Origin: Flavobacteriaceae bacterium
Lineage (GTDB): Bacteria > Bacteroidota > Bacteroidia > Flavobacteriales > Flavobacteriaceae
Direction of reading: 5' to 3'
Length of the DNA: 39,080 bases
Assembly: GCA_009921505.1 (NCBI GenBank)
Contig: RFXU01000002.1
Location: 1 to 39,080 of the forward strand
Shown: piece after piece, positions 2,492 to 37,171 of the stretch
How positions within the stretch are numbered: the first letter of the stretch is position 1
Layout: every line of letters starts with the position of its first letter
Program-made: the position numbers and the translations under genes
Notes under the pieces: model-generated
The model's input: the letters and a program-made list of their open reading frames with translations, nothing else
What the model was told of the DNA's origin: nothing
Databases searched by the model: none

Positions 2492-2642
2492 TCTTCTGAT
2501 TTTAGTCTTCTAAAATAGCTAAAAATAAAAGGGGAGCCTTAGCGATTCGCTGCTAATTTTTTGTTAAACAAGGGGCTTTAAAAATCAATTTCAAATTGTG
2601 TTTTCCCCTCAGATAAGCGTATTTTTAACCCTAAATCAAAAT

Positions 2643-3428
2643 ATGGAGCAAGATAGACCCCTTATATTGGTCACTAATGATGACGGGATAACCGCCCCAG
2701 GAATCAGAACCTTGATCAAGGCCATGCTGCCTTTGGGTGAAGTGGTTGTCGTGGCGCCCGATGCTCCACAAAGCGGTATGGGTCATGCCATTACGGTTAA
2801 TGACACCTTGTATTGCGATCCAATAAATGTAGATGATTCCTTAGATATTCGGGAGTTCAGCTGCAGTGGAACTCCGGCGGATTGTGTCAAAATTGCGGTC
2901 AACGAAGTCCTGCATCGCAAACCTGATCTTCTGGTCAGTGGGATCAATCATGGAAGCAATGCCTCGATAAACGTCATCTACAGCGGAACGATGAGTGCCG
3001 CCGTGGAAGCAGGAACGATGGGCATTCCCGCTATCGGCTTTTCACTTTTGGATTTTAGTTACAATGCAGACTTTAGTCACACCATAGAACCCATTCAACA
3101 CCTCACCAAAGAATGCCTCAAACACGGCATGCCTCAGGGGGTTGTTTTGAATGTGAATTTTCCCAAAATCGACCAAGCGCCCTTCAAAGGAATCAAAATT
3201 TGTCGTCAGGCCAATGCCCAATGGGTGGAACAATTCGACAAACGCAAAAGCCCATGGGGACGCACGTATTATTGGCTCTCAGGGGAATTTGTAAACCTAG
3301 ATCAAGGCCAGGACACCGATCAGTGGGCTTTGGACAATGGCTATATCTCAGTGGTTCCTGTTCAATATGATTTGACAGCGCATTATGCTATTCCTTTAAT
3401 TAACCAATGGAAGTTAAGTCATGAGTAA
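2643..3428 (+). CDS. surE: 5'/3'-nucleotidase SurE
   Basis: ILVTNDDGITAPGIRTL, GTPADCVKIAVNE, LVSGINHGSNAS motifs. Likely start is ATG at 2643 (MEQDRPLILVTNDDG), not the 2598 ATG in the ORF track. Confidence 0.95.
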   Translation: MEQDRPLILVTNDDGITAPGIRTLIKAMLPLGEVVVVAPDAPQSGMGHAITVNDTLYCDPINVDDSLDIREFSCSGTPADCVKIAVNEVLHRKPDLLVSGINHGSNASINVIYSGTMSAAVEAGTMGIPAIGFSLLDFSYNADFSHTIEPIQHLTKECLKHGMPQGVVLNVNFPKIDQAPFKGIKICRQANAQWVEQFDKRKSPWGRTYYWLSGEFVNLDQGQDTDQWALDNGYISVVPVQYDLTAHYAIPLINQWKLSHE

Positions 3429-3708
3429 AAGAATCTTTAAAGGCTTATTAGTAGGGTTTATATTTAACGGAATTGGCGTGCTGCTGTGCCTGTTTATTTT
3501 TAGTCTGTTAAACAACAGTAATATTGAAGCGATGTGGACCGGATTTTTAGAAACTCAACGATTGTGGATGTTGATTTCCCTCGGCGCACTGCCTAACTTA
3601 CTTGCCTTTTTTGAGTTTTTAAGACGCAACCAAGAATACGAAGCTCGTGGCGTCCTTTTGGCAACAATTGTGGCGGCTCTAGCCACCTATTTCCTATATT
3701 TTTTCTGA
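3421..3708 (+). CDS. Small conserved membrane protein located between surE and lpxB
   Basis: 95 aa with about three hydrophobic helices; overlaps the surE stop by 8 nt; TGA followed immediately by the lpxB ATG. Confidence 0.75.
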   Translation: MSKRIFKGLLVGFIFNGIGVLLCLFIFSLLNNSNIEAMWTGFLETQRLWMLISLGALPNLLAFFEFLRRNQEYEARGVLLATIVAALATYFLYFF

Positions 3709-3709
3709 T

Positions 3710-4743
3710 ATGAAGTATTACATCATTTCGGGAGAGGCCTCTGGAGATTTACACGGATCTAACCTGATTCGTGAACTCAACCAAAAAGACCCAAAGGCAG
3801 AAATTCGAGTATCGAGGTTTTATTCAATCTCAAAACCATACTGGGCAATATAAAACGCTGTAAAAAAGACATTCAGGCCTTCAGTCCGGATGTTTTAATT
3901 CTCATTGATTATCCTGGCTTTAATATGCGTATTGCGCGCTGGGCCAAAAAACAAAATATTCCGGTTCATTACTATATTGCCCCTCAAGCTTGGGCGTGGA
4001 AAGAAAATCGCGTTAAAGATATTCGCCGTGATGTTAAGGCCCTCTATGTTATTTTGCCCTTTGAAGAGGAATTTTTTGGCCAGCGAGGCTGTCCTGTTCA
4101 TTTTGTGGGACACCCGCTTCGTGATGCGCTCTTAAATAAGCCCGAAGTCCATGAGGATCAGTTTCGATTAAAATACAATTTGGATCAGCGTCCGATAATT
4201 GCTCTGCTTCCTGGAAGTCGTAAGCAAGAAATCTCGGCAATGCTCCCCACTATGGCAAAAATGGCGGATAAGTATAAAGACTATCAGTTTATTGTTGCCG
4301 GCGCTCCGTCGATAGAATTAAGCTTTTACCAACAACTGATTGACTTGTCAAAAATTCAGGTGGTCACTCAAGACACTTATTCCATTCTCAGTGTTGCCCA
4401 TGCCGCGATGGTTACCTCTGGCACAGCCACATTGGAAACGGCCTTATTAAATGTGCCCCAAGTGGTTTGTTACAAAGGACATTGGCTATCTTATCATATT
4501 GCCAAACGCATCATTAAGCTGTCCTACATTTCTCTGGTCAATTTAATCCTTGATGCTCCTGCGGTTCCAGAACTTATTCAAGACCAGTTCAATGAAAGGA
4601 CCCTTATGGATCACTTGTCTCATTTGCTTAGCCCACAGGGGCGATCTGCGCAACTCAAGGCTTATGATCAGCTCCTTGAAAAGTTGGGTCCCTTAGGGGC
4701 GAGTAAACGCGTTGCCAAATTAATTTTTGAACACGCCCAATAA
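3710..4743 (+). pseudogene. lpxB: Lipid-A-disaccharide synthase LpxB, disrupted by an internal deletion/frameshift around 3808-3811
   Basis: N-terminus in frame from ATG 3710: MKYYIISGEASGDLHGSNLIRELNQKDPKAEIR, then the frame reads VSRFYSISKPYWAI*. The rest of LpxB resumes in another frame at 3811: IEVLFNLKTILGNIKRCKKDIQAFSPDVLILIDYPGFNMRIARWAKK... to 4743. The expected FWGGDLMQ...MGF segment is missing. Confidence 0.85.
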
Positions 4744-4755
4744 GTAAAAAACGAC

Positions 4756-5274
4756 ATGGTCTCTTCTCATAAACCATTAGTTAATTTAATCATTCTGTGT
4801 TCATTAGCTCTAGGTCTGTCGAGTTGTGGCAGCAGTCGAAATGTGAGTCATCGAAACGCTAATGTCCCCGGAAACAACATTTCACTAACCAAAAAAGAGT
4901 CCATATTAATTGACCAAGCAAAAAGCTTTATTGGCACCCCATATCAATGGGGCGGAGACAGTAAAAAAGGCATGGACTGTTCTGGACTCATTTACCAAAG
5001 CTTTAAAGCCATAGATATAGATGTTCCGCGGACTACAAAAGAGCTGATCCATCAAGGGCGCAAAATTGCGCCGAGTAAATTAAAGCCCGGTGACTTGGTG
5101 TTTTTTAAAACACTCAAATCAAAAGCCAAAGCGACTCATGTTGGTCTGGTTACGCAGAGTGCAAAAAATGAAACACTCTTTATTCATTCGGGGACTTCAA
5201 GCGGAGTGACAATTTCTAAATTAGAGGATACCTATTGGAAAAAGCACTTTGTTTTTGCCCGACGCATTTGGTAA
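4756..5274 (+). CDS. NlpC/P60 family (C40) cell-wall peptidase lipoprotein
   Basis: 172 aa; lipobox LGLSSCGS; DCSGLIYQSF, HVGLV and IHSGTSSGV catalytic motifs. Confidence 0.92.
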   Translation: MVSSHKPLVNLIILCSLALGLSSCGSSRNVSHRNANVPGNNISLTKKESILIDQAKSFIGTPYQWGGDSKKGMDCSGLIYQSFKAIDIDVPRTTKELIHQGRKIAPSKLKPGDLVFFKTLKSKAKATHVGLVTQSAKNETLFIHSGTSSGVTISKLEDTYWKKHFVFARRIW

Positions 5275-27142: not shown

Positions 27143-27215
<73 letters not shown>

Positions 27216-27325: not shown

Positions 27326-28228
27326 CTATTTTGAGATCAAATTATTTAGATCCCAAGTACTTATTTCAGGATTAGCCCCCGCTTTAGCCGCAACAATACT
27401 CCCGATTTTCACTGCGGCGTCCAATGCTTGCTCTGGCGAGCGTTTTTCGATAATTAATTCCTGTATTAAAGCCGCCAAAAAACTGTCTCCTGCACCCACA
27501 GTGTCCATAACCTCCACGACATAACCCGAATGAGCATACCAGAACCCCTCAACAAATAATCTCGCTCCTGCACCACCTAAGGTCACACACCAAATTTTAT
27601 TAGGGTCAAAGGCCGAGAGTTTAGCACATTTTTCATCAATGGAATCACTTTCTTGAAAATCAAGTGATGACGCATATAAATAATCCAATTCTTCATCATT
27701 CATTTTAACCAGGTCTGCCTTTTTTATCATGCCTTCAATCCAGGACAAATCAAAATGTGGTGGTCGAAGATTGACATCGAAAACCTTCAACAGGTTGTAT
27801 TTCAATAAATCATTGAGGCTCTTTTGGTTGGGCGGATGACGCAAAGCCAAACTTCCAAAAACTAAAACCTGGGCGGACTCCATCAAAGGTTCAATCTTAT
27901 TATTTACATTAATGTCATCCCAGGCTGCAGGATCCTCGATGGTATAGCGAGCCGAGCCTTGATGATCCAAGATAACATTGACCCTTCCAGTGGCTAAATG
28001 GTCGTGCCGCGAAACACCCCGTGTGCTGAGTCCCTTTTGTCGCATATAATCCAAGACGTTTTCGCCGAGTTGATCATGACCTATCGTACTGACCATGAGT
28101 GTGCTCACGTCAAAACTATGGAGCCTTTGGGCGACATTAAATGGAGCGCCTCCGATAACAGAATGATCCTCAAAGACATCCCACAGAATTTCCCCCCAAC
28201 AAATTATTTTTGGGGAATCAGGCTTCAT
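27326..28228 (-). CDS. PfkB family carbohydrate kinase (probable fructokinase)
   Basis: 300 aa; CWGEILWDVFEDHSVIGGAPFNVAQRL; VMDTVGAGDSFLAALI PfkB signature; context with GH32. Confidence 0.92.
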   Translation of the reverse strand: MKPDSPKIICWGEILWDVFEDHSVIGGAPFNVAQRLHSFDVSTLMVSTIGHDQLGENVLDYMRQKGLSTRGVSRHDHLATGRVNVILDHQGSARYTIEDPAAWDDINVNNKIEPLMESAQVLVFGSLALRHPPNQKSLNDLLKYNLLKVFDVNLRPPHFDLSWIEGMIKKADLVKMNDEELDYLYASSLDFQESDSIDEKCAKLSAFDPNKIWCVTLGGAGARLFVEGFWYAHSGYVVEVMDTVGAGDSFLAALIQELIIEKRSPEQALDAAVKIGSIVAAKAGANPEISTWDLNNLISK

Positions 28229-29570
28229 GATCGACCAATTCCTTTTCTAAATCCTCTAGAGAAATTCCTTTGGTTTCCGGCATTTTGAATAGGGCCCACA
28301 ATAATTGTAAGACCATCATAAAGGCAAAGAAGTAATAAATCACCTCTAAATTATCGCGAAAAATTCCCTCTTGATCATCGATAAAAAATGGGGTAATCAT
28401 GGTGATAATCGCCGCGAAAACCCAGTGGGTTCCAGTACCCCAGCTCTGCCCATAAGAGCGCACCCGATTGGGAAATATCTCAGAGATAAATACCCATATA
28501 ACGGCACCTTGGCCGATGGCATGGGCTGCCACAAAAAGACAAATAAACGTCAATAACAAAGTTGAACTTAAGGCGTATTGAAAACACACCCCAACCATCA
28601 CAAGACTCAAGATATAACCTATAGATCCGATTATTATCAATTGACGACGACCGAGTCGATCAATTAATCGCACCCCAATAAGGGTAAATATTAAATTGAC
28701 AATACCGATCGCAATCGAATTAAAAAGCGAATCACTGCCTCCTAATCCGGCTTGCTCCAAAATTTGTGGGGCGTAGTAAAGAACAAAATTTATTCCTGAA
28801 AGCTGATTAAAAAAGGCGATGAGAAAACCTAGATAAAGTACTTTCTTATATTTCTTTTGAAATAAGCGATCCGATCCGCTCGATTCTTGACGGTCTAATT
28901 TAATCTCGGCCAAATGTCTTTTGGCCAAATCGACTTTTTGATAAATGATGGTCAAAATTGATAAAGCGCCTTGCTCATCACCCTTTTGTAACACCAACCA
29001 TCTTGGGCTGTGTGGCACCTTTAGGACCATTAGTGTATAGGCTAAAGCAGGAATGGCCTCTACGCCAAGCATCCAACGCCAATCATTGGCCCCATCAAAA
29101 CCTTTAAGGGCCCAATTCGATATAAACGCCACCAAAATTCCAAAGACTAAACAAAATTGATACAGGCCTCCTAATTGACCTCTTTTGTCAGAAGAAGTGA
29201 TTTCAGATATATAAATAGGAGCCGCCACTGAGGAAACCCCAACACCAACACCTCCTATAAATCGAAAAAATGAAAAAAGAAAAGGATCAGAAACTACCGC
29301 GCTTCCTATAGCAGACACAAAAAATAATACTCCAATCCAGAACAAGGTTTTCTTGCGCCCCATTTTCTGAGTAGGAATGCCTCCCATAAGAGACCCCAAA
29401 ACAGTGCCCCAAAGCGCCATGCTCATGATAAAAGTACCATGCATGAACGGAGAAAGATCCCAAAGTTCTTGTAGCGGTTTATTTGCCCCGCTGATCACCA
29501 CGGTATCAAAACCAAAAAGAAACCCCGCAAGAGCTACGGTAATTGAAAAAATCAAAATTTTATTGTTCAT
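28218..29570 (-). CDS. MFS sugar porter family transporter
   Basis: 450 aa; GFLFGFDTVVISGA; RFIGGVGVGVSSVAAPIYISEI; PHSPRWLV; DRLGRRQL; PETKGISLEDLE. Confidence 0.94.
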   Translation of the reverse strand: MNNKILIFSITVALAGFLFGFDTVVISGANKPLQELWDLSPFMHGTFIMSMALWGTVLGSLMGGIPTQKMGRKKTLFWIGVLFFVSAIGSAVVSDPFLFSFFRFIGGVGVGVSSVAAPIYISEITSSDKRGQLGGLYQFCLVFGILVAFISNWALKGFDGANDWRWMLGVEAIPALAYTLMVLKVPHSPRWLVLQKGDEQGALSILTIIYQKVDLAKRHLAEIKLDRQESSGSDRLFQKKYKKVLYLGFLIAFFNQLSGINFVLYYAPQILEQAGLGGSDSLFNSIAIGIVNLIFTLIGVRLIDRLGRRQLIIIGSIGYILSLVMVGVCFQYALSSTLLLTFICLFVAAHAIGQGAVIWVFISEIFPNRVRSYGQSWGTGTHWVFAAIITMITPFFIDDQEGIFRDNLEVIYYFFAFMMVLQLLWALFKMPETKGISLEDLEKELVDHEA

Positions 29571-31086
29571 GCCAAATTGAATTGAATTCTGAAAAAATAA
29601 TTTTATCGGTTATCGTCCCGTCTGAAACAATCTTTAAGCGGTTATAAGGCTCCTCAGGAAAGACTTGATTGGTAAATACATAGCGGCCGTCATCCACAAA
29701 TATTTCTATGGAAGATGCATCACAAAAAATGGCCACCTTTGCGGCTCGATTCTCCGGGTTGAAATTTGAAATTTGCGGTCCCGGGGCAAATTTCTCGGAA
29801 AATCCAATTTTGCCAGAAACGCGCCGATCGATCAACATTTGTCCTGGAGTTGAATTGATCGAAAAAACAAATTGATCCTGATCGTTGGATAACTCAAATA
29901 CTGTCTTTTCACTCAGGTCTACGTCAAATTCTATTTTAAATTGACCGGAGGGCAAAACAACCCCTTCGTTGACTTGAGAAATATCAAACTCCTCGGTCTG
30001 ACGAACAATGGAAGGCTCAATTATAGGACTTTGCACAAGGTAATAATCTGAGTTGCTCCCCTTCAATTCTAGACGTCTTGGCAGGGTCATTGCACTGCGC
30101 CAGGTCGTGGTAGGGGTTACCTGTGCATAATCCCAATTGCTCATCCAACCGATTAAAATTCGTTGGTCCTCTGGAGCATCATTATAAGTTACTCCGGCAT
30201 AATTGTCACGGCCAAAATCCAGCCATTTACTCCCCTCTTGTGTTGTGGTAAATTTTTGTCCATCAAAATCACCAACAAAATATTGAGTTGCTGACCCGCC
30301 TTTTGGCCCTCCAGGATTAACACTTACGATTAAAATCCATTTTTCATTCCCTTGATCAGTAGTTAAAGGAAATAAATCTGGACACTCCCACACACCGCCA
30401 TGGGCACCTTCATTATGACCAAAATCACTTAAAAATGTCCAATTAATAAGGTTAGGAGAATTGTAAATGCGCGCGTGATCTCCCGCAACCAAAATCAAAA
30501 TCCATTTTTGAGAAGGCTCATGCCAAAATACCTTTGGATCCCTGAAGTCTTTAATTCCGGGATTTTCAATTACTGGATTTCCATCATATTTCTCCCAGGT
30601 CATCCCATGATCAAGACTAAATGCGATGCCTTGAGTTTGATAATCCTTTCGTCCTGAGCGCTCGTGTTCCATATTATGATAGGTAAATATGGCCACTAGA
30701 GCAGGTTGATCATCTGTTCCCAGTCCTGAAGAATTTTTAGTGTCCATTACGGCGCTGCCAGAAAAAATATACCCCAATGAATCAGGATAAAGGGCTATGG
30801 GTTGATTGGTCCAATGGGTCAAATCTTCACTCGTTGCGTGTCCCCAATGCATAGGCCCCCATACGGTGCTGTCCGGGTAAAACTGATAGAACAAATGATA
30901 CTGATCGTTTTCAAAAATCAACCCATTTGGATCGTTCATCCAATTTGATTTTGGAGAAAAATGAAATTGCGGCCGATAGCGCTCTGAATATTCTGAGCGA
31001 TGATTTTCTCCCGCTTTGATCAAGGGATCAATACAGCTACTAGGCAGTATAAAAAGGGCGGCAAATAAGCCAAAAAGCAGACGCAT
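29560..31086 (-). CDS. Glycoside hydrolase family 32 (levanase/inulinase-type) lipoprotein
   Basis: 508 aa; lipobox ILPSSCID; WMNDPNGLIF nucleophile motif; FRDPKVFW; WECPDLF. Confidence 0.95.
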   Translation of the reverse strand: MRLLFGLFAALFILPSSCIDPLIKAGENHRSEYSERYRPQFHFSPKSNWMNDPNGLIFENDQYHLFYQFYPDSTVWGPMHWGHATSEDLTHWTNQPIALYPDSLGYIFSGSAVMDTKNSSGLGTDDQPALVAIFTYHNMEHERSGRKDYQTQGIAFSLDHGMTWEKYDGNPVIENPGIKDFRDPKVFWHEPSQKWILILVAGDHARIYNSPNLINWTFLSDFGHNEGAHGGVWECPDLFPLTTDQGNEKWILIVSVNPGGPKGGSATQYFVGDFDGQKFTTTQEGSKWLDFGRDNYAGVTYNDAPEDQRILIGWMSNWDYAQVTPTTTWRSAMTLPRRLELKGSNSDYYLVQSPIIEPSIVRQTEEFDISQVNEGVVLPSGQFKIEFDVDLSEKTVFELSNDQDQFVFSINSTPGQMLIDRRVSGKIGFSEKFAPGPQISNFNPENRAAKVAIFCDASSIEIFVDDGRYVFTNQVFPEEPYNRLKIVSDGTITDKIIFSEFNSIWHEQ

Positions 31087-31124
31087 AATGAATTGCTAAA
31101 ATATTGGTTAGGCTAAATGTAAAA

Positions 31125-32147
31125 TTATTTTGGCGTTGAATCACGCTCAACTATTTTCGTCTTAAGCGTTTTAGTTATAGGGGTAAAAGCAATTCCTTGT
31201 TTTTTTGCATTCATTTCTTTGCGCAAAAGTTTAAAAGTTTTACGGCCCATCTTATAACCTGGCTGATCCACAGTACTTAGCGCAGGGGTTATAGCCTGAG
31301 ACAAAAACCAATTACTAAAGCCCATAAGGGCAATATCTTGAGGTACTTTAATGCCATTTTCCTTGAAGACCGTCAAAGCTCCAGTTGCCGCCATATCGGT
31401 AATGGCAAATAGCCCATCGATTTTATGCCCATCCGCTAAGAGCTGAATTGCGGCTGCTCTTCCATCATCATAATCCACCTTTTCGCAGATATAAACTAAT
31501 TTGGGATCAAAAGGTAAACCGTGATCTTCAAGGGCCTTTTTGTAACCTAAAAATCGATCAATGCTATTTTGCGGTAGTAAAGCCCCTCGAAAGTGGGCAA
31601 TTCGCTTACATCCTTTATCAATTAAAAATTTTGTTGCGTCGTAAGCAGCCTGTCGATCGTTAATCACTACTTTGGAACATGCAATCATTTTTGAAATCTT
31701 ATCAAACATGACCAATGGTGTATTTGCTCTTTTTATGGAAGCAATATGATCGACCTCTACGGTGGTATTGGCTAAAGACATCATGATTCCGTCCACACGC
31801 TTGCTCAAAAGCAAATCAACCTGCTTGCGCTCGAGTTCTTCGGATTCATTGGATTGGAGAATAATAACGAGATACCCAAATTTTTCAGCTTCATTGATGA
31901 TTCCATTAATCACACTGGAAAAAAAGTGATGCACCACCTCGGGTATTATTAACCCGACAGTCCTGGACTCCTTTGTACGCAGGTTTACCGCAAAGACGTT
32001 TGGTTTGTAATTTAATGCTTTGGCCTCAGCGCGAACTAAGGCCTTAGTCTCCTTACTGACATCTTTATAATCCTTTAGCGCCTTGGACACAGTCGTTACT
32101 GATATTCCAAGATTTTCAGCGATTTGTTTTAAGGTAACCTCTTTCAT
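31125..32147 (-). CDS. LacI family transcriptional regulator
   Basis: 340 aa; VTLKQIAENLGISVTTVSKALKDYKDVSKETKALVRAEAKALNYKPNVFAVNLR HTH; TVGLIIPEVVHHFFSSVINGI periplasmic-binding-like domain. Confidence 0.95.
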   Translation of the reverse strand: MKEVTLKQIAENLGISVTTVSKALKDYKDVSKETKALVRAEAKALNYKPNVFAVNLRTKESRTVGLIIPEVVHHFFSSVINGIINEAEKFGYLVIILQSNESEELERKQVDLLLSKRVDGIMMSLANTTVEVDHIASIKRANTPLVMFDKISKMIACSKVVINDRQAAYDATKFLIDKGCKRIAHFRGALLPQNSIDRFLGYKKALEDHGLPFDPKLVYICEKVDYDDGRAAAIQLLADGHKIDGLFAITDMAATGALTVFKENGIKVPQDIALMGFSNWFLSQAITPALSTVDQPGYKMGRKTFKLLRKEMNAKKQGIAFTPITKTLKTKIVERDSTPK

Positions 32148-32220
32148 TTGGGTTTGATCTGATGTGCGAAATGTATAATTTTCAATTCAATGATTGCAAG
32201 TTATTTCAAGTAAATCGAAA

Positions 32221-32236
32221 ACGAAAACGATTTCGT
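32221..32236. promoter_or_regulatory. Candidate LacI-family operator
   Basis: ACGAAAACGATTTCGT: 6-bp perfect arms ACGAAA/TTTCGT around a central CG, in the divergent lacI-susC intergenic region, 74 nt from the lacI start. Confidence 0.65.
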
Positions 32237-32409
32237 GTTCAAAATTGATAATTTGTAAGGCAATCGCTTCATTTTTCAAAAAAAAGCTAGAAATTGTACC
32301 TTAAATTAGGATTTCATTATACGCCTCGGAATCCATTACTGAGGAAAAAACAAAATCTATGTTATAAAAAAATTGTATATTTCACCGCAATTTGCGGCAT
32401 TCTTAACGG

Positions 32410-32442
32410 TTTGAATGCCTCCTTTTGTATTTGTAATATTTG
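32410..32442 (+). promoter_or_regulatory. Possible susC promoter (-33 TTTG, -7 TAATATTTG)
   Basis: TTTG at 32410-32413 and TAATATTTG (one nt longer than TAnnTTTG) at 32434-32442, 20-nt spacing, 45 nt before the ATG at 32488. Confidence 0.35.
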
Positions 32443-32487
32443 AAAACGACTGATTAACAAGTAAATTAACCTAAAACCGAGAATTAT

Positions 32488-35400
32488 ATGAAAAACAAAC
32501 TACTAACTAAACTTTTGTTGCTCCCTGTAGTTCTGCTCATGGGAAGTACCGCATTTGCCCAGATGACTGTTAGTGGAACAGTTTCCGATGCAAATGGACC
32601 TGTTCCTGGAGTGAATGTTGTGGTGCAGGGCACTTCAAATGGAGCACAAACTGATTTTGACGGTAACTATTCCATCAGTGATGTCGCAAATGACGCCACT
32701 TTGGTATTCAGTTACATTGGCTATGCAACCCAAGAGGTTTTTGTAAATGGCCAGTCATCAGTTGACGTAACTCTAGCTGAAGACGCTCAAGCTTTGGCTG
32801 AGGTTGTGGTTATTGGTTATGGTACTACCACGGTTCAAGACGCAACCGGGTCCGTAACAGCAGTAACTGCAAAAGACTTCAACCAAGGGGTCATCACCTC
32901 TCCTGAGCAATTGATCCAAGGTAAAACTGCCGGGGTTCAAATTTCTCAGAGCAATGGTGAGCCAGGTGCGGGTATCGACATCCGTATTCGTGGAGCAGCT
33001 TCTGTTCGATCTAACAACAATCCATTATTCGTAGTTGATGGTATTCCATTATCAGGAGGTAATACTTCTGCTGAAACTGCAAATACTGGGGTTGGATCAA
33101 ATGCAGCTAAAAACCCATTAGCCTTTATCAACCCTAACGATATTGAAAGTATCAGTATCCTCAAAGATGCCTCTGCAGCCGCTATTTACGGTTCACGTGG
33201 TGCTAACGGAGTTGTGTTCATTACCACTAAATCTGGTAAAGGAGCAAAAGGAAGTTCATGGGAATATTCTTCAAGTATGGCGATTGCGTCAGTAGCAAAA
33301 ACTTTTGATTTGTTGTCTGCTGAAAAATATTTAAGCCGTTCGAATGATTTTGGATTCAATGTTGAAGAGCGTGATTTCGGATCAAACACGAACTGGCAAG
33401 ACTTTATTTTTAGAACTTCGACTTCTACAAACAATGATATTGCATATTCTAACAACTATGGTTCAGGTAACTTACGTGCAACCTTTGGTTACAGCAAGAA
33501 CTTTGGTGTTGTGGAAAATACGTCTTTAGAGCGTATTACAGGTCGTCTTAACTGGAATCAAAGATTTTTAAATGACAAACTTAAAATTGGGGTTCAGTCT
33601 ACACTTTCTCGCGTAAACGATGAAGGTGCGGCTACTGCAGCATCTGCTGGTTTCCGAGGAGATCTTCTCGGAGCAGCTTATTCAGCTAACCCAACTTGGC
33701 CTACCTCTCCTGACTTCGATGGAACTGGAGGTCTTTTGTCTCCTGCCACAATGTTGGATTATTACCAAAACCTAGCAAACACTAACCGTATGTTAGTTAA
33801 CGTTTCTGCAGAGTACGCTTTAACGTCAGATCTTTCTGCTAGAGTAAATATTGGTATTGATGAATCTGAGTCAACTAGAATTGGTGTTTCTTCGCCAAAC
33901 GCGCGTAACTTCGGTGCGGGTGCCTTTGGTAATGGACGTGGAATCTTAAGCGACTTAAATACAAGCAGCGAACTTTTGGAAGCAACTTTGAACTATTCAA
34001 AAGACTTCGGAAATTCTAGCCTTGATATCTTAGCCGGTTACTCTTATCAGAACTTCAACCGTAACGGTCGTACCGCCAACGCTTGGGGATTCTTCACAGA
34101 GAATATGAACGAAATGGGTGATGCAATCGAAAGCACTGCTAACGCTATTGAAGCAAAAATTACTGGTGACTATCAGCAGTATGGTTTTGCCGGTAATACC
34201 GGTGGAATTTTCGTAAATCGCCTATTCCCTGATCCAGCAACTGATATCATCACTGACCTAAATAACCTGGCTGTAAAATCGATCTTTGTTGACACTTTTG
34301 ACAACACTGACGAATTACAATCTTACTTTGGTCGTGTGAACTACTCTATCAATGATAAGTATTTATTCACTGCAACAGTTCGTGCGGATGGTTCTTCTCG
34401 TTTTGGTGAGGACAACCAATACGGTTATTTCCCTTCAGGAGCTTTCGCCTGGAAATTACACAACGAAGACTTCGTAAGTGATGCATTCTCTACTTTAAAG
34501 CTTCGTTTAGGTGCCGGTATTACTGGTAACCAAGAAGGTCTTGGATATGGAAACTTCACCCAAAGACAGCGTTACGCTGGTGGTGGACCAGATGATGGTG
34601 GAAACATCAACATCCCAGGTATCGTAGACGTTTCTTATCCTAACCCAGCACTTAAGTGGGAAGAAACAATGCAATATGCCGCAGGTCTTGACTTCGGATT
34701 CAACAATGATCGTTTTAACGGTAGCTTAGATGTTTACCGCAAGGAGACTTCTGACCTATTGTTCAATGTACTTGCAGCTCAGCCTTCAGTTCAACCATTC
34801 TTGTTCTTGAACTTACCAGATTCTAAAGTGGTAAACCAAGGACTTGAAGTAAGCTTAGGTTATGATCTTATCTCTAGTGATGATTTAACCTGGAATGCAA
34901 CCTTAAACGCAGCTTACAATGACAACATGGTTGAGTCACTTCAAGGAGAGTTTGATGCTGGTACCATCCGTGGACAAGGTCTTTCTTTAGCCTTCGCTCA
35001 GAAATTAAAAGCTGGAGAGCCATTGTTCTCTTACTTCTTACGTGAATTTGAAGGATTTGATCCTGCGACTGGACAACCAGTACAAACAGACGTTCAGGAC
35101 TTCGTTGGAAAGAGCGCATTGCCTAACCTAACTGGAGGTCTTTCAACTTCTTTGAGCTACAAGAGATGGACAGCATCCGCTTATTTCTCAGGTCAATTTG
35201 GTCACTATATTTACAACAACACGGCTAACGCCTTCTTTACTGCAGGGGCTTTCCGTGGAGGTCGTAACGTAACTTCAGACGTGCTTACCGCTGGTGAGTC
35301 ATTTGATGCTGCCGCTGACGTATCTACTCGTTTCTTAGAAAGTGGAGATTTCGTTCGTTTCCAAAATGCTACAGTAAGTTACAATTGGCCTCTATCTGGG

Positions 35401-35601
35401 GATGAGTTCTTCTCATCACTAGTGTTCTCAGTGACTGGACAAAACTTATTTGTAATCACAGATTATTCAGGTTTGGATCCTGAAGTAAGTAGCTCGCCTT
35501 CAGGTGGAGACTTATTAAATGGTCTTCCAGTATTTGGTATTGACTACGCGTCATACCCAAGACCAAGAACATTTACTTTTGGACTTAACGCTAAATTTTA
35601 A
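32488..35601 (+). CDS. susC: SusC/RagA family TonB-linked outer-membrane protein
   Basis: 1037 aa; signal peptide; VSGTVSDANGPVPGVNVVVQGTSNGAQTDFDGNYSI carboxypeptidase-like domain; VVVIGYGT; plug SILKDASAAAIYGSRGANGVVFITTKSG. Confidence 0.97.
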   Translation: MKNKLLTKLLLLPVVLLMGSTAFAQMTVSGTVSDANGPVPGVNVVVQGTSNGAQTDFDGNYSISDVANDATLVFSYIGYATQEVFVNGQSSVDVTLAEDAQALAEVVVIGYGTTTVQDATGSVTAVTAKDFNQGVITSPEQLIQGKTAGVQISQSNGEPGAGIDIRIRGAASVRSNNNPLFVVDGIPLSGGNTSAETANTGVGSNAAKNPLAFINPNDIESISILKDASAAAIYGSRGANGVVFITTKSGKGAKGSSWEYSSSMAIASVAKTFDLLSAEKYLSRSNDFGFNVEERDFGSNTNWQDFIFRTSTSTNNDIAYSNNYGSGNLRATFGYSKNFGVVENTSLERITGRLNWNQRFLNDKLKIGVQSTLSRVNDEGAATAASAGFRGDLLGAAYSANPTWPTSPDFDGTGGLLSPATMLDYYQNLANTNRMLVNVSAEYALTSDLSARVNIGIDESESTRIGVSSPNARNFGAGAFGNGRGILSDLNTSSELLEATLNYSKDFGNSSLDILAGYSYQNFNRNGRTANAWGFFTENMNEMGDAIESTANAIEAKITGDYQQYGFAGNTGGIFVNRLFPDPATDIITDLNNLAVKSIFVDTFDNTDELQSYFGRVNYSINDKYLFTATVRADGSSRFGEDNQYGYFPSGAFAWKLHNEDFVSDAFSTLKLRLGAGITGNQEGLGYGNFTQRQRYAGGGPDDGGNINIPGIVDVSYPNPALKWEETMQYAAGLDFGFNNDRFNGSLDVYRKETSDLLFNVLAAQPSVQPFLFLNLPDSKVVNQGLEVSLGYDLISSDDLTWNATLNAAYNDNMVESLQGEFDAGTIRGQGLSLAFAQKLKAGEPLFSYFLREFEGFDPATGQPVQTDVQDFVGKSALPNLTGGLSTSLSYKRWTASAYFSGQFGHYIYNNTANAFFTAGAFRGGRNVTSDVLTAGESFDAAADVSTRFLESGDFVRFQNATVSYNWPLSGDEFFSSLVFSVTGQNLFVITDYSGLDPEVSSSPSGGDLLNGLPVFGIDYASYPRPRTFTFGLNAKF

Positions 35602-35611
35602 AAAATAAATT

Positions 35612-37171
35612 ATGAAAAGAAACATGATAAAATTCATGAAGCCCGTTCTAGCGACTGCGTTTCTATCTTTATTGACCGTTTCCTGTACAGACTTAGCGAT
35701 TGAAGAATCTGATTCTATTATCGCCGAGGGATCTACAGTATTCGAAGGAGTAGCTGATGTAGATGCATCGATTACTAACCTATACAATGACACATACGGA
35801 CAACTTGGTGACCAAGGAAATTTCTTTGCCTTGAACGAAGTTTCTACAGATGAAACCCTTGTACCTACTCGTGGTACGGACTGGGGGGATAATGGAATCT
35901 GGAGAACGCTTCACGCACATACTTGGAGTCCTACCCACCAATTTGTCTTAAACACTTGGAACAATTTGAACCAAAACGTTTTGCGTGCCTCTCAGATCCT
36001 AGATCCATTGAGCGCACCAAACGCTGAGCAAGAAGCACAAGCTCGTTTCTTGCGCGCATTCAGTATGTACTTTGTGTTAGACCTATATGGTGTTGCACCG
36101 TTCCGTCAACCAACAGACGCTTCTGATGTTAATCCATCTGTATACTCAGCGTCTGAAGCTTATGCTTTCATCGTAAATGATCTTGAAACAGCGTTGCCAA
36201 ACTTGCCTATGGCAGGTCCTGGACCAACTGAAGAAGGTCACTCTAGAGCCAACCGTGCTGCTGGACACTTTATGTTAGCAAAAGTTATGTTGAACGCTGA
36301 GCGTTACACCGGATCTCAACCAAACTATCAGGCTGTTATCGATCACGTAGACGCCATTGCTGCTGAGGGATATGCCCTACAAGCTGGATATTTCGATATC
36401 TTCAAGCAAGACGTTCCTGATTCAGAAACAATTTGGTATGCTAAAGCTGGTGTAGGTAACCGTATTTGGAATGGATTGCACTACAACCAAAACTCTCCTG
36501 ATAACTCAGGGGGTGGTTGGAACGGATTCACTACTTTGGCTGAATTCTATGACAGCTTCGAAGGGCCTGAAAGCAATGCTGCAGGTTCTGGTCAAGAAGA
36601 GCGTCGTGGATGGGTGCCAGGTGCTTCTGATGCTGACTCTCAAAACTTGGGAATTGGTTATGGTTTCCTAGTAGGCCAGCAATACGAAGAAGATGGAACT
36701 ATCCTAAAAGATCGTTCTGGAAACCCACTTGTATTCACTAAAGAATTACCAGGTCTTTCTGGTAATGGTGAAAATACTGGTATTCGTATTATTAAATATC
36801 ACCCTGGTGATGACGGCGGATCTTTCCGTTCACATGAAATCGTATTCCGTTATGCTGATGCGCACTTGATGAAAGCGGAAGCTATGATGCGTATGGGTGG
36901 TAATGCTACTCCGATGGTGAATGAACTACGTACACTTCGTGGCGCTACTCCACTAGGAAGCGTTACAGATGCTGATTTATTGGCTGAGCGCGGACGTGAG
37001 TTATACGTTGAGTTCTGGAGAAGAAACGACATGTTGCGTTTCGGACAGTTCACTCGTGCTTGGGAATTTAAAAACGAAGCATCAGTAGGTGACGATACTT
37101 GGAAACTTTACCCTATCCCGGTAAACGCCTTGTTATCTAACCCTAACTTAGTTCAGAATCCTGGATACTAA
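35612..37171 (+). CDS. susD: RagB/SusD family nutrient-uptake outer-membrane lipoprotein
   Basis: 519 aa; lipobox LLTVSCTD; NEVSTDETLVPTRGTDWGDNGIWRTLHAHTW; ARFLRAFSMYFVLDLYGVAPFRQ; C-terminal LLAERGRELYVEFWRRNDMLRFG...YPIPVNALLSNPNLVQNPGY. Confidence 0.97.
   Translation: MKRNMIKFMKPVLATAFLSLLTVSCTDLAIEESDSIIAEGSTVFEGVADVDASITNLYNDTYGQLGDQGNFFALNEVSTDETLVPTRGTDWGDNGIWRTLHAHTWSPTHQFVLNTWNNLNQNVLRASQILDPLSAPNAEQEAQARFLRAFSMYFVLDLYGVAPFRQPTDASDVNPSVYSASEAYAFIVNDLETALPNLPMAGPGPTEEGHSRANRAAGHFMLAKVMLNAERYTGSQPNYQAVIDHVDAIAAEGYALQAGYFDIFKQDVPDSETIWYAKAGVGNRIWNGLHYNQNSPDNSGGGWNGFTTLAEFYDSFEGPESNAAGSGQEERRGWVPGASDADSQNLGIGYGFLVGQQYEEDGTILKDRSGNPLVFTKELPGLSGNGENTGIRIIKYHPGDDGGSFRSHEIVFRYADAHLMKAEAMMRMGGNATPMVNELRTLRGATPLGSVTDADLLAERGRELYVEFWRRNDMLRFGQFTRAWEFKNEASVGDDTWKLYPIPVNALLSNPNLVQNPGY

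Follow-up and report, generated by a model that had tools for sequence, protein, structure and literature searches.

Does the flavobacterium behind this DNA lack a working lpxB, or does its draft genome only read that way? The window, meaning the whole stretch of 39,080 nt that we analyzed, is an entire contig (RFXU01000002.1, assembly GCA_009921505.1) of a Flavobacteriaceae draft genome. In place of the continuous frame of about 370 codons expected of LpxB, it carries two frames with 76 nt missing. From sequence comparisons, we estimate a probability of about 0.9 that this loss is an artefact of assembly rather than the mark of a lineage that lost the gene.

The frame opening at 3710 encodes the LpxB N-terminus, MKYYIISGEASGDLHGSNLIRELNQKDPKAEIR, and then loses the frame, reaching a stop at 3851-3853. 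A second frame, matched to LpxB in a profile search, is open from 3775 to 4743. A preliminary description of this DNA had reported a change of frame between the two halves and the absence of the block that normally joins them, and both observations hold. In DNA alignments, all six congeners keep a block between positions 3809 and 3810 that the window does not have, and none is naturally without it. Even the size given in that description, about 26 residues or about 76 nt, proved exact: the net loss could be measured against five relatives and was 76 nt each time. In the intact protein of G001, the closest relative by lpxB, the block spans residues 34-59 (GWGGDLM...AFMGF; 26 residues less 2 retained bases). 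What follows the join is 93% identical to the G001 protein and scores well above family thresholds (215.5 bits vs. a cut-off of 190.25 for TIGR00215, and 236.8 vs. 22.6 for the LpxB profile, TIGR00215/PF02684 family), and the 47-aa reading of the 5′ part has a weak Pfam LpxB match (E 1.9e-4). Solved LpxB chains (5w8s, 5w8n) can be aligned across the missing region without a gap, and its loss should therefore abolish enzyme function even if the frame were unbroken.

The neighboring genes are intact (Table 1), and the order surE, 95-aa protein, lpxB, NlpC/P60 is the same in G001. Farther along the window, a run of genes at 27326-37171 reads by eye like a fructan-use locus, with a sugar-kinase-like gene, a sugar transporter, a protein bearing the WMNDPNG motif of GH32, a LacI-type regulator, and SusC- and SusD-like genes. 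A single tRNA gene (27143-27215, minus strand) is the sole Rfam match within the window.

Table 1. Features around lpxB in the window, and other block losses in the same draft (C1 and C14 are other contigs of that draft).
Feature	Position	Strand	Basis
surE, intact, upstream of lpxB	2598..3428	+	Profile match; omega 0.02 vs. G001
95-aa conserved small protein, intact, immediately 5′ of lpxB	3421..3708	+	Comparison with G001
lpxB 5′ fragment, codons 1-33 plus one base	3710..3809	+	DNA alignments, frame reading, weak Pfam LpxB match
lpxB join, site of the 76 nt missing vs. congeners, 0-1 nt microhomology	3809..3810	+	DNA alignments
lpxB 3′ fragment, residues 60 to end, different frame, TAA at 4741-4743	3810..4743	+	TIGR00215; G001
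NlpC/P60 protein, intact, downstream of lpxB	4756..5274	+	Profile match, comparison with G001
ahcY (adenosylhomocysteinase), 113 nt missing with frame change	C1, about 38160		Block kept by aligned congeners
actB-like iron-sulphur gene, 175 nt missing, frame change	C14:13418		Block kept by congeners
actC-like gene, 105 nt missing in frame	C14:14363		Block in all seven loci (six congeners) reaching it

If lpxB had been lost for some time, its remains should look neglected, and they do not. Compared with G001, dN/dS is 0.10 in the 3′ part and 0.05 in the 5′ part, and lineage-specific codon changes number 16 synonymous and 1 non-synonymous in the window vs. 14 and 2 in G001. The remnant is constrained like the G001 orthologue and is evolving like a working gene. 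With omega at about 0.1, we detected no relaxed selection or further lesions in it, and it does not fit pseudogene decay. Therefore, the lesion must be very recent if it is real at all. The genes lpxA, lpxC, lpxD, and lpxK, for which the preliminary description had proposed a search, are present with open frames: LpxC and LpxK each gave one match above the cut-off with no internal stop, LpxD is full-length, and an LpxA-type frame of 260 aa is intact on another contig (C434), alongside other lpx genes.

We scanned 393 kb of the draft, about 16% of the genome, against the proteins of five congeneric genomes, which covered about 176 kb of coding DNA and 147 genes near full length. The draft totals 2.44 Mb in 480 contigs and is 81.6% complete and 4.7% contaminated. 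Besides lpxB, three clean internal deletions turned up in the roughly 176 kb of conserved coding DNA, none of them shared by any relative (Table 1). The actC-like gene lies directly downstream of the actB-like gene, and their two losses fall within 1 kb of each other. For this pair, the names are presumed from our own reading of the sequence and its Fe-S domains, with no family assignment. A second intact copy of the missing ahcY block is absent from the draft. Decaying genes mostly show frameshifts of 1-2 nt and premature stops; among the 147 other conserved genes with near-full matches, we found no one- or two-base frameshifts and no credible premature stops. Most “internal stop” matches in the scan look, from their length and position, like short shadow open reading frames or translations continued beyond the true stop codon. 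On C14, an infB-like gene showed a 27-residue gap, but it falls in a variable linker where blastn gave no clean join, and we took it for natural variation in length. The scan also showed a 50-residue gap in a 65%-identical 204-aa protein. By rough extrapolation, four losses in 176 kb would imply some tens of such joins across the genome.

The preliminary description had offered three options for lpxB, namely an assembly or consensus error, a culture-derived mutation, or a loss compensated by another copy. We favor assembly error because the same draft has clean block losses at several unrelated places, in conserved genes whose missing blocks are kept by the relatives aligned. The other two options fared poorly. 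A culture-derived mutation is unlikely, since the assembly is a fragmented draft and the genomes of the named collection that lie nearest to it are environmental MAGs. As for a compensating copy, a profile search of the draft, at 81.6% completeness, found a single LpxB place and no second lpxB, and no other contig of the draft carried the missing block.

The anatomy of the joins bears on how such losses could arise. TCGAG does occur twice at the lpxB junction (3805-3809 and 3812-3816), as had been pointed out. Still, a deletion between these direct repeats is ruled out because such an event leaves one copy at the join, and both are present. In relatives, the right-hand copy is native sequence, ATC-GAG (I60-E61), as is the left-hand copy, an Ile-Arg codon pair (I32-R33). 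Inspected base by base, the three frame-changing joins (lpxB, ahcY, and the actB-like gene) are blunt, with 0-1 nt of microhomology. Perfect tandem duplications, expected if overlapping contig ends had been concatenated, amounted to one 15-nt unit in 393 kb, leaving that variant of the artefact unsupported. We propose instead that a short stretch of an intact lpxB was left unassembled between two assembled pieces, and that these may have been joined end to end with no N marker, so that lpxB comes out frameshifted in the contig. The organism itself would then have an intact lpxB. A blunt join of this kind, lacking spanning reads, would need a scaffolding, gap-closing, or N-removal step. This counts against an artefact, as such a join is not expected from a plain de Bruijn assembler.

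The drafts of relatives offer a comparison. In the same scan, a cleaner draft (G005, 198 kb) had a single split, at the far C-terminal end of a 124-aa protein. The sister draft G001 had four interruptions in three genes (loci L095, L099, and L104), all of them runs of N (66, 98, 101, and 108 nt). Short unassembled gaps of similar size thus occur inside G001 genes, where they are marked by N. The window's draft has no N in the 393 kb sampled, a weak sign alone given that the stretches of G005, G006, and G002 are also N-free. In ahcY, two G001 contigs stop close to the position of the join, and one stops about 29 nt before that of the actC-like gene. Because G001 contigs end there, these two sites appear hard to assemble, a pattern that we noticed after the fact. 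One further record among the relatives, OMJU01000080.1, is titled Candidatus Rokubacteria isolate AM_2207 and is a flavobacterial contig from a congener of the window, with an LpxB 84% identical; that genome record is probably mislabelled or mixed.

A genuine deletion of the 76 nt, recent and either fixed or common in the population, would leave a cell that lacks LpxB and manages without normal lipid A or survives in some other way. In its favor, the join is clean and unique, the draft yielded no second lpxB, and the constraint on the remnant is compatible with a very recent event. Indeed, a very recent true deletion would likewise show no relaxed selection, which counts against the artefact reading. 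Yet the like losses in ahcY and the actB- and actC-like genes make a cause particular to lpxB unnecessary, the remaining lpx genes are retained, and the lpxB join has almost no microhomology. Moreover, lpxB is essential in Bacteroides fragilis, Porphyromonas gingivalis, and Bacteroides thetaiotaomicron (PMC4072883). We therefore consider a real deletion very unlikely. Similarly unlikely is its physiological consequence, a flavobacterium that truly and very recently came to be without LpxB, kept the rest of the pathway, and either accumulates lipid A precursors or makes no lipid A.

Alternatively, the deletion could be confined to some cells, with intact lpxB in most of them and the assembler having chosen the variant path. 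An assembly of a mixed population can take a minority path. However, this explanation needs independent deletions in several essential or conserved genes, each carried by a minority and each chosen over the majority, and the draft bin holds no alternative contig with the missing lpxB block, although one could have been left unbinned. Such a minor variant strikes us as highly improbable. Programmed frameshifting, which would rejoin the halves into a working but shorter LpxB, finds some room in the stop-free overlap of the two frames from 3775 to 3850. Even so, restoring the frame would leave out 26 residues kept by every congener and by the solved chains, and by eye the overlap contains no classical slippery heptamer, making this the least credible of the alternatives.

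With assembly error as the best explanation, the lpxB lesion probably does not matter as biology. Its value is as a warning: this draft appears to silently drop stretches of 76-175 nt from conserved genes, and claims of gene loss or pseudogenes drawn from it are therefore untrustworthy without reads. Measured against the LpxB family (TIGR00215, PF02684; chains 5w8s and 5w8n), both window fragments belong to it, but the contig is short of 26 residues of the N-terminal domain and its frame is broken. For MAGs, Chen and colleagues (PMC7111523) report protein-coding genes in public databases that were corrupted by local assembly errors, as well as N gaps where scaffolds are joined. The window resembles those cases in that genes at joins are incomplete or incorrect and conserved genes seem broken. 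It differs from their scaffold gaps in that its own gap carries no N and the two pieces abut exactly.
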